NCBI RefSeq assembly: GCF_000296775.1
Contig: NZ_AJLE01000001.1
Span: forward strand, 1 to 64,000
DNA: 64,000 nt
Source: Sulfurovum sp. AR
GTDB taxonomy: Bacteria > Campylobacterota > Campylobacteria > Campylobacterales > Sulfurovaceae
Direction of reading: 5' to 3'
Shown: one piece after another, positions 408 to 57,912 of the stretch
Layout: each line of letters opens with the position of its first letter
Position numbering within the stretch: position 1 is the stretch's first letter
Notes under the pieces: generated by a model
The model's input: the letters and a program-made list of their open reading frames with translations, nothing else
Database searches by the model: none
Told to the model about the DNA's origin: nothing
Position numbers and translations under genes: made by a program

Positions 408-1796
408 ATGTCTAAAAAAATTGCATCTGCAAGAATCTCTGAAAAGAGTTCACAACTTCTACAAGATCTCAACAACTCACTGCCGTTTGACAAAGTACTT
501 TATAAAGAAGATATAGAGGGTTCACGTGCCCATGCCTATATGCTTTGCGAGCAGGGTATCATCTCTAAAGAGGACTATGAGAAGATAGAAGGCGGACTCT
601 ATGAGATACTGGGTGAAATAGAGTCCGGTGTATTTAAATTGGACGGGGATGATGAAGATATCCACATGTCCATAGAAGGAAGACTGACTGAAAAGGTAGG
701 AGATGCGGGTAAACGTCTGCATACAGCACGTAGCCGTAATGACCAGGTCGCACTTGATTTTAGACTCTATGTACAGAACAACACAAAGGCCATTGCAGAT
801 CTGCTTTTAGAGAACATTACTACGCTTGTAAAGGTTGCAGAAGAGAATGCAGAGACGATGCTTCCTGGTATGACACACTTACAGCATGCGCAGCCTATAA
901 ACTTCGGTTACCATATGATAGCCTATGCCAGCATGTTTAAACGTGATTATGAGCGTTTTATGAGCTCTTATGAACGTAATAACTATTCTCCTATAGGTTG
1001 TGCAGCCTTAGCTGGTACACCACACCCGATTAACAGACAGACCACTTCAGATAAACTCGGCTTCAATGCTCCTACTCTGAACTGTCTTGATACGGTAAGT
1101 GACAGAGATTTTGCACTGGAGATACTCTTTAACATCTCTACAATGATGATGCATATGAGCCGTTTGAGTGAAGAGCTTATTTTATGGTCTGCTAGTGAAT
1201 TTAAGTGGGTGACACTCTCAGATCGTCATGCGACTGGTTCTTCCATCATGCCACAAAAGAAAAACCCTGATATACCTGAACTTCTCAGAGGAAAAACAGG
1301 ACGTGTGAATGGTAACCTTATTGCACTCCTTACCGTGATGAAAGGACTCCCACTTGCTTACAATAAAGATATGCAAGAGGATAAAGAAGGAGTATTTGAC
1401 TCTGTTAAAACAGCCATCATTTCTCTACAGGTGCTTGAAGAGATGATAGCAGAGATGACAGTGAATGCAGACAAAATGGAAGCCGCATGTATGATAGGCC
1501 ATCTCTCGGCAACAGATCTGGCAGACTACCTCGTAAAAGAACAAGGTCTTCCGTTTAGAGATGCCTACCACATCACCGGTAATGCAGTGAACCTGGCAGA
1601 AGAGAAAGGTCTGGATATCTCAGAACTTTCTTTGGAAGACCTACAAAGTGTAGATAGCCGCATCGGTGAAGGGGTAGTAGCACTTCTTGACAACCGTGCT
1701 TCTATGAATGCCCGCCAGTCTGAAGGTGGTACGGCAACTGCTAGAACTCTTGAACAGGTTGAGAGTATGAAGGGTTGGTTAAGTAAACAAAATTAA
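408..1796 (+). CDS. argH: Argininosuccinate lyase
   Basis: ArgH splits argininosuccinate into arginine and fumarate, the last step of arginine synthesis, in the cytoplasm. The 462-residue protein has the usual family length. It carries the N-terminal [10 protein letters not shown] motif near residue 105 and the superfamily signature [12 protein letters not shown] near residue 277, whose serine is the catalytic base. The start ATG has an AGGA ribosome site about 8 nt upstream. Other arginine genes in the window are argD (41050) and argB (56861), so the pathway is dispersed here. The fumarate it releases connects to the TCA block. No anomaly seen. Confidence 0.97.
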
Positions 1797-1825: not shown

Positions 1826-1831
1826 TACAAT
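1826..1831 (+). promoter_or_regulatory. -10 box of the riboswitch/L,D-transpeptidase transcript
   Basis: TACAAT at 1826-1831 would start transcription near 1839, seven bases before the closing stem of the aptamer at 1846. No clear -35 is seen, which is usual in this phylum. Confidence 0.5.
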
Positions 1832-1845
1832 GTAAATCAATTATT

Positions 1846-1925
1846 AATGTTAAAAGCTAAACTTGTTGTGAAGCAAGGACAGAAAGTCATGGGTCTTTAG
1901 TGCAAAGATCGCCAGACCGCACATT
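1846..1925 (+). promoter_or_regulatory. Cyclic-di-GMP-I (GEMM-I) type riboswitch aptamer
   Basis: The sequence follows the GEMM-I plan. Closing stem P1 pairs AATGT 1846-1850 with ACATT 1921-1925. P2 pairs CTTGTT 1862-1867 with AGCAAG 1872-1877 around a GTGA (GNRA) tetraloop at 1868-1871. Next come the conserved GGACAGAAAGTCATGGGTCT segment and stem P3, GGTCTTT 1892-1898 with AAAGATC 1904-1910, followed by the GCCAGACC segment that matches the family's GCCGGGTTACC end. A second copy with the same architecture but different stem sequences lies at 57837-57912, which supports the call. The assignment rests on remembered consensus; ligand specificity (c-di-GMP or cGAMP) is not determined. Confidence 0.85.
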
Positions 1926-1970
1926 TTCTTATATATAGATAGTTCTGCCTTTTTTACTTCCTAACTTTTA

Positions 1971-2008
1971 ACAATGATATGATTCAAACCCAATCAAAGG
2001 ATCATTGT
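1971..2008 (+). promoter_or_regulatory. Hairpin covering the start codon of the L,D-transpeptidase gene
   Basis: ACAATGAT 1971-1978 pairs perfectly with ATCATTGT 2001-2008, and inside it GATT 1981-1984 pairs with AATC 1992-1995. The GTG start begins at 2007 and the ribosome site AAAGG (1996-2000) sits in an internal loop. The hairpin would mask initiation, so it is a plausible expression platform for the riboswitch just upstream. That link is inference. Confidence 0.55.
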
Positions 2009-2516
2009 GAAGAAATACCTGTTTTTTTATATCATCACCTCACTTTTTCTTTTTGCAAATACTTCATCTCCATCGAAATCTAAGGGTCTCAAAGCAGACT
2101 TGGTGACAGTAGTAAAATCTCAAAGAAAGATGTACCTTTCATGTAAAGGCAAGATCTTAAAAAAATATGACATTGCTTTAGGCGGTAACCCTGTAGGGCA
2201 TAAGAGAGTAAGAGGTGACCAAAAGACGCCTGAGGGAAAATATAAGCTCGATTATTTCAAACCCAACAGCTCTTTTTATAAAGCTTTGCATATCTCCTAC
2301 CCAAATAGAAAAGATCATCAAAATGCAAGGAAATTGGGTAAAAGTCCCGGAGGATCGATCATGATCCATGGACAACCCAATAACAGAGAGATCAAAAAGT
2401 CATTTTTCCAACGCTATAATGATTGGACTGCAGGGTGTATCGCATTGGAAAATGATGAGATGGATGAAGTTTTACATCTTGTGAATGTGGGAACCCCGAT
2501 CCACATTAAGCCTTGA
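2007..2516 (+). CDS. L,D-transpeptidase family protein (YkuD domain, YafK/DpaA-like)
   Basis: Predicted exported enzyme of peptidoglycan metabolism. YkuD proteins make or break L,D cross-links or release proteins joined to meso-diaminopimelate. The 169-residue protein begins with a signal peptide of about 18 residues (KK then a hydrophobic run). The YkuD catalytic region has IMIHGQP near residue 118 and DWTAGCIAL near 139-147, where the Cys is the nucleophile; the TAGCIA form is typical of the YafK branch rather than SHGCIR. Start is GTG with AAAGG six bases upstream. The leader carries a c-di-GMP-I-like aptamer and a start-masking hairpin, suggesting second-messenger control of cell wall editing. 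Transpeptidase, carboxypeptidase or amidase activity cannot be told apart. Confidence 0.85.
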   Translation: MKKYLFFYIITSLFLFANTSSPSKSKGLKADLVTVVKSQRKMYLSCKGKILKKYDIALGGNPVGHKRVRGDQKTPEGKYKLDYFKPNSSFYKALHISYPNRKDHQNARKLGKSPGGSIMIHGQPNNREIKKSFFQRYNDWTAGCIALENDEMDEVLHLVNVGTPIHIKP

Positions 2517-57836: not shown

Positions 57837-57912
57837 TATTGAAAAAGCCAAGTTCATCGCGAGGTGGGTACGGAAAGTTATGGGTCTCACGTAGATCGCC
57901 AGACTACCAATA
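57837..57912 (+). promoter_or_regulatory. Cyclic-di-GMP-I (GEMM-I) type riboswitch aptamer, second copy
   Basis: P1 pairs TATTG 57837-57841 with CAATA 57908-57912. P2 pairs TTCATC 57853-57858 with GGTGGG 57863-57868 around a GCGA tetraloop at 57859-57862. The conserved ACGGAAAGTTATGGGTCT segment (57870-57887) and stem P3, GGTCT 57883-57887 with AGATC 57893-57897, follow, and GCCAGACTACC at the 3' side matches the family's GCCGGGTTACC. Its own -10 lies upstream at 57811. The next gene, thrC, is about 250 bases away. Confidence 0.85.

Follow-up and report, generated by a model that had tools for sequence, protein, structure and literature searches.

A c-di-GMP-I riboswitch leader before a YkuD-family peptidoglycan enzyme gene in Sulfurovum and its probable action as a translational OFF switch

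In Sulfurovum sp. AR, the gene for a short, probably secreted YkuD-fold protein is preceded by a leader carrying what is almost certainly a true c-di-GMP-I riboswitch, and this element very probably controls the gene. Our best overall explanation, in which we place fair confidence, is that the c-di-GMP-I leader acts as an OFF switch on translation, with the choice between folds probably being a kinetic one made during transcription. The aptamer class is already known; what is new is a group of further members and a new regulon, with an uncommon target in the YkuD enzyme. The relevant features lie near one end of the 64,000-nucleotide stretch of DNA that we analysed (the window) and are collected in Table 1.

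Table 1. Features of the riboswitch leader and its neighbours in the window.
Feature	Position	Strand	Basis
argH (argininosuccinate lyase), upstream neighbour	408..1796	+	Pfam Lyase_1 and ASL_C2
Probable -10 element TACAAT	1826..1831	+	TATAAT in 6 of 7 other aligned leaders
Aptamer 5' strand TTATTAATGTTAAAAGC (P1 5' arm to G20 and its neighbour), putative S2 target	1841..1857	+	Duplex statistics
c-di-GMP-I (GEMM-I) aptamer	1846..1926	+	RF01051 match, covariation, canonical G20/A47/C92/C44-G83
P2 3' arm and junction AAGGACAGAA, putative S1 target	1875..1884	+	Ligand-free minimum-energy fold
Competing strand S1 TTCTGCCTTT	1943..1952	+	Complementary to 1875-1884 with one mismatch
Competing strand S2 ACTTTTAACAATGATAT	1964..1980	+	Potential pairing with the aptamer 5' strand; overlaps the start hairpin 5' arm
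Start hairpin 5' arm ACAATGAT	1971..1978	+	Sequence; forms in the aptamer-constrained fold
Shine-Dalgarno AAAGG	1996..2000	+	Sequence; AAAGGA same in every intact aligned leader
Start hairpin 3' arm ATCATTGT, covering the start codon	2001..2008	+	Sequence; longest start-overlapping stem among 44 starts
169-aa predicted secreted YkuD-domain protein, GTG start, putative regulated gene	2007..2516	+	Pfam PF03734, E 2.3e-19

A covariance-model search of the 64-kb window (cmscan, Rfam 15) matched c-di-GMP-I (RF01051) at positions 1846–1924 on the forward strand with 50.6 bits (E 6e-07) against a gathering threshold of 35 bits, which upheld the c-di-GMP-I call of an earlier sequence-only reading. The architecture on which that reading had drawn, a GNRA-capped P2, a GGGTCT/AGATC P3 and a closing P1, is present, the P2 loop being GTGA. 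P1 comprises 5 bp in the window (AATGT 1846–1850 with ACATT 1922–1926) and 3–4 bp in the orthologues. When we aligned 25 aptamers (21 from the Sulfurovum sp. AR genome and four from orthologues), the drawn pairing gave 89.4% standard pairs, and 16 of its 25 pairs had changes at both sides. The covariation score was 0.397, as opposed to 0.220 in shuffles (none of 500 reached the observed score) and no more than 0.152 when partners were slid, and 86 cells of the alignment carried both-side changes, compared with 38 in the shuffles. Pairing was observed in 100% of the cells of P2, 91.7% of those of P3 and 61% of those of P1. The excess of covariation indicates that the need to keep base pairs constrains the evolution of the aptamer.

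The ligand contacts are canonical too. G20, A47 and C92 of Vc2 contact the ligand, and the interhelical Watson-Crick pair C44–G83 is universally conserved (PMC4744006); the equivalent letters of the window are G, A and C in the alignment, and the C44–G83 pair between P2 and P3 is present, with both its C and its G invariant in all 25 aptamers. The canonical G20, A47 and C92, along with the intact C44–G83 pair, make c-di-GMP the expected ligand of the window aptamer, though an aptamer with G20 may also be promiscuous. At the foot of P3, the pair between A49 and position 90 is non-standard in six of the 25 aptamers, including the window and three of the four orthologous leaders; C replaces U opposite A49 in the window and, among the seven other species whose aptamer is intact, in five, and binding may be somewhat weaker as a result.

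The leader begins in the gap 3' of argH. The probable −10 element coincides with a motif conserved among the aligned leaders (AGTAtAATG) and would place the transcript start at about 1838–1840, just 5' of the aptamer; because a generic scan found no sigma-70 site, both the element and the start are ones that we infer. We gathered the closest YkuD orthologues from genomes of the genus and from GTDB genomes and found that the orthologue is preceded by an intact riboswitch in seven further species (L061, L062, L063, L064, L171, L172 and L174), whose proteins are 70–95% identical to that of the window and whose aptamers score 49–52 bits and lie ~85–110 bases 5' of the start codon. The riboswitch was also present in Campylobacterales bacterium MY14.005 (L090) and Epsilonproteobacteria bacterium SpSt-1228 (L091), with leader sequences identical to those of L174 and L064, respectively. 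In the same-species genome the contig ends within the aptamer, and the 3' remainder of the leader is present. An eighth species has an eroded aptamer (L173:1320–1410) before a 73%-identical orthologue, which we read as a natural loss of the switch. No riboswitch match preceded the orthologous gene in five relatives at ~60% identity, nor was a riboswitch found in the leaders of 74 other, more distant ykuD loci that we scanned. Because the riboswitch is kept before the orthologues and is missing at ~60% identity, its association with the gene is a clade-level trait rather than a chance neighbourhood, and the link to the YkuD gene drawn from the window sequence thus holds across species. Within the leader alignment, the aptamer is almost invariant, the linker is divergent, and the Shine-Dalgarno sequence reads AAAGGA in all intact leaders; a nearly invariant aptamer beside a divergent linker is the pattern expected from selection on the aptamer. 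Elsewhere, c-di-GMP-I aptamers of 71–73 bits occur in Grimontia (L126:4818–4910, minus strand) and Enterovibrio (L128:4715–4818, minus strand), ~1.8–1.9 kb from ykuD on the opposite strand.

The product of the window gene scores 70.9 bits against PF03734 (cut-off 23.4), has a likely signal peptide, and carries a catalytic pair, C144 and H121, that is invariant in 35 sequences. In structural alignments, its AlphaFold model (mean pLDDT 86.2) matched Csd6 (Z 18.4, rmsd 2.4 over 129 residues), YkuD (Z 17.3) and Pgp2 (Z 17.3), and the row with the highest identity was DpaA (30%, Z 13.2); the sequence-profile ranking placed DpaA first (E 1.1e-14), followed by Pgp2 and Bd1075, with YkuD and Csd6 lower. 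The protein shares the YkuD fold and the equivalents of Cys144 and His121 with DpaA (YafK/LdtF), Pgp2, Csd6 and Bd1075, and differs from them in being only 169 aa long, with ~22 residues separating the His from the Cys. Residues named in this family (PMC10653827) include a lysine that binds mDAP, a tryptophan of the LD-carboxypeptidase D-Ala pocket (Csd6 Trp158) and a methionine of DpaA. The lysine is present (K66, equivalent to DpaA K83), and Met119, which aligns with DpaA Met133 and with a Trp in Pgp2, occupies the D-Ala pocket position, so that the Trp of the LD-carboxypeptidases is missing. Despite this likeness to DpaA, the protein scored 49.5 bits against the DpaA/YafK/LdtF equivalog (NCBIfam NF040599), far under its cut-off of 365. 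We regard the product as a YkuD-family peptidoglycan enzyme that more likely belongs to the hydrolytic branch. The sequence-only reading had assigned the gene to peptidoglycan cross-linking, a role that is not established, given that DpaA, Pgp2 and Bd1075, to which it is closest in sequence among relatives of solved structure, are hydrolases and that the pocket residues tested match DpaA.

That reading had also proposed that a hairpin masks the start codon. The 8-bp inverted repeat ACAATGAT/ATCATTGT does exist as described, spanning GTG 2007–2009 and enclosing AAAGG 1996–2000, and is the longest perfect start-overlapping stem among the 44 gene starts tested in the window (the runner-up has 6 bp). 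Its conservation stops at the closest relatives, however, being common only to the same-species genome and to a relative with 95% identity. The absence of the hairpin from orthologues beyond these rules it out as the conserved platform; it is plausible as a start-masking device local to the species.

What does recur is a strand able to compete for the aptamer. The duplex between S2 and the aptamer 5' strand beat dinucleotide-shuffled linkers in all eight leaders (p 0.000–0.010, in tests that are not independent, since the eight leaders are kin), with p = 0.008 for the window and p = 0.003 in a repeat run. The place of S2 is constant across the eight leaders while its letters vary (ACTTTTAACAATGATAT, TAGCTTTTGATATGTATAT, TGTTTTGATCATTAATAT and others), and none of the 17 further copies that we tested from the genome showed an S2-like strand (p 0.08–0.98). 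The TCTG core of S1 is retained in most orthologues, and the S1 and S2 helices are mutually exclusive with the full aptamer. Judged from these alignments and duplexes, it is the strand competing for the 5' side of the aptamer, not the start hairpin, that has been conserved in the switch. Pairing between the linker and the Shine-Dalgarno sequence was discarded as a statistical signal: these duplexes were mostly no better than those of shuffled linkers (p 0.05–0.90), so evidence for the anti-Shine-Dalgarno limb comes from constrained folding only.

We modelled the bound state by enforcing the aptamer and P1 in folding. Under this constraint the window start codon went from 0.88 to 0.22 unpaired through formation of the start hairpin, and the Shine-Dalgarno sequences of L172, L061 and L062 went from ~0.7 to ~0.2. 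The Shine-Dalgarno sequence of the window opened slightly (0.53 to 0.71), and masking there therefore reaches the start codon only. Combined accessibility of the Shine-Dalgarno sequence and start codon dropped in six of the eight leaders, a drop that was mostly modest relative to shuffled linkers (fraction at or below the observed value, 0.00–0.23 in the six falling leaders), and L063 and L064 went the opposite way. With at least 36 coding bases added, the window start was paired in both states. Equilibrium folding in which P1 was not enforced gave no ligand-dependent change at the window start site, and we therefore propose a kinetic, P1-dependent switch; P1 is the switching element of the translational Vc2 riboswitch (PMC9262584). 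Nearest-neighbour energies, in which neither tertiary contacts nor the ligand are counted, favour the competing fold over the bound one by 5 to 16 kcal/mol, so the choice is likely made during transcription.

In the mechanism that we favour, positions 1838–2009 of the window would form the 5' leader of the transcript that encodes the secreted YkuD-fold enzyme of peptidoglycan, opening with the aptamer. At low c-di-GMP, S2, aided by S1, would pair with the aptamer 5' strand and the P2 arm and undo the aptamer; S2 would then be held off the start region, and the gene would be translated. At higher levels of the signal, which fourteen GGDEF domains could supply, c-di-GMP would bind the emerging aptamer, and P1 would lock the 5' strand and leave S2 free. 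The freed S2 would fold onto the start codon in the window (ACAATGAT with ATCATTGT), and in relatives it would often cover the Shine-Dalgarno sequence instead (TTTTGAT/ATCAAAG), with less translation in either case. The folding models lend the OFF direction moderate support, and we judge control at translation by S2, in the OFF sense, to be reasonably likely.

The leader can be set beside two studied switches of the class. With Vc2 of Vibrio cholerae, the type RNA of RF01051, it shares the fold, the GNRA-capped P2, the interhelical C–G pair, G20/A47/C92 and a position in the leader. It differs in that pair 21–46 is C–G in all 25 of the aptamers that we aligned, whereas in Vc2 it is G21–C46, in having a dedicated second strand, S2, that competes for the 5' side, and in targeting a YkuD enzyme. 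Cd1 of Clostridioides difficile is a transcriptional OFF switch and a studied case of decision during transcription, in which a downstream strand undoes the ligand-free aptamer (PMC9262584); the aptamer class and OFF logic are the same, but Cd1 has an intrinsic terminator, and here we see none and propose masking of the start region instead.

The main rival to a translational OFF switch is a true c-di-GMP-I riboswitch on the YkuD gene that works in the ON direction, with the ligand removing an inhibitory ligand-free fold, which would be either a terminator-like S1 helix with a U-rich tract or an ATGATTC/GGATCAT hairpin masking the Shine-Dalgarno sequence. The sequence offers both some footing, in that more T residues follow the AAGGACAGAA/TTCTGCCTTT helix and the ligand-free minimum-energy fold also pairs 1979–1985 with 1999–2005. 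In L063 and L064 the bound state is computed to be slightly the more open one, and ON switches of the class are known (Vc1, PMC4744006; the related pilM, PMC9262584). However, a terminator scan found no intrinsic-terminator-like site, a result that also led us to reject an intrinsic terminator as the platform, and the S1 helix is rich in A and U and closes a large, branched loop. With six of the eight leaders computing as less open when bound, we consider an ON switch unlikely.

Two other explanations concern the aptamer itself. It might respond not to c-di-GMP but to 3',3'-cGAMP or a variant ligand, as its fold is common to cGAMP-sensing relatives and the model for the GGC variant (c-di-GMP-I-GGC, RF03167) scores the window copy at 57.1 bits in a 400-base stretch, just below a cut-off of 59; of the genome's 21 copies, eight score above this cut-off. 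Yet position 47 is A in the window copy and in all 25 aligned aptamers, where the GGC model has G; position 20 is G in 25 of 25, where the cGAMP-selective GEMM-Ib form has A; C92 is retained; and the genome encodes 14 GGDEF domains. The canonical A47 and G20 rule out a variant ligand class as the first reading despite the near-cut-off score, and we think another ligand quite improbable. Less probable still is that the aptamer is a decaying or weakened copy whose binding is poor and whose control of the gene has been lost. Such decay would fit the C that faces A49 at the P3 base in the window and in most orthologues, the U at position 92 in L061 and the eroded aptamer of L173, but the aptamer is near-identical over eight species despite divergence of the linker. 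As for L061 (2104–2182, minus strand), an orthologous leader with U in place of the ligand-contacting C92, its specificity may differ. c-di-GMP, acting through a functional aptamer and in the OFF direction, remains our preferred reading.

The switch has many counterparts in its genome and genus. Sulfurovum sp. AR has 21 c-di-GMP-I aptamers in one 2.1-Mb genome, including three tandem pairs (C6:400693/400841, C9:83429/83587 and C8:28447/28663). They precede genes for a WecG/TagA glycosyltransferase, surface proteins with fibronectin and carboxypeptidase-regulatory domains, a subtilase, a DUF4382 protein, PAS-domain proteins, a hybrid histidine kinase, an ABC transporter and a GGDEF-EAL protein. 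The riboswitch directly before the GGDEF-EAL gene (L030:9615–9714, minus strand; C5:83614–83713) suggests feedback of c-di-GMP on its own turnover. Another lies directly before the ABC transporter gene (L025:11441–11539, minus strand), which is followed by genes for small proteins and by one resembling asparagine synthase; together they may make up a lasso-peptide-type cluster controlled by c-di-GMP. The window itself holds a second aptamer (57837–57911, plus strand, 48.3 bits) ~248 bases before thrC; it has no short leader, another promoter-like site lies just before thrC, and the aptamer could function as an RNA in its own right.

Sampling more widely, we found c-di-GMP-I in 35 of the 37 members of the genus that one sample contained, at between 1 and 21 copies per genome, and, across the phylum, in 43 of 397 genomes. 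For Campylobacter jejuni and its relatives, the literature that we found describes essentially no metabolite riboswitch other than TPP (PMC3847290), and a 2025 survey assigned the enrichment of tandem c-di-GMP riboswitches to other phyla (PMC12452182). Our literature search found no report of a c-di-GMP riboswitch for Sulfurimonas or the epsilonproteobacteria, nor one in a Sulfurovum riboswitch paper. On the protein side, the Sulfurovum sp. AR genome has, besides its GGDEF domains, one MshEN domain and no detected PilZ domain, and none of 78 genomes of the genus has a PilZ domain over the Pfam cut-off, although divergent PilZ or other protein receptors may exist. No flagellin gene was found in the Sulfurovum sp. 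AR genome, which makes unlikely a tie to flagellar motility, the sequence-only reading having spoken of surface or motility signalling.

This genus-level picture is more surprising than the single YkuD riboswitch. A genus rich in c-di-GMP-I aptamers and without PilZ offers a natural setting where RNA may carry most of the output of the second messenger. It is possible, though we hold the idea only tentatively, that the genus reads c-di-GMP largely by RNA and that the YkuD switch lowers a DpaA-like hydrolase in the sessile, high-c-di-GMP state. If so, surface life would be coupled to anchoring or trimming of the envelope by way of a platform that captures the aptamer 5' strand. Apart from this idea, the YkuD target offers a direct, testable link between c-di-GMP and cell-wall remodelling.
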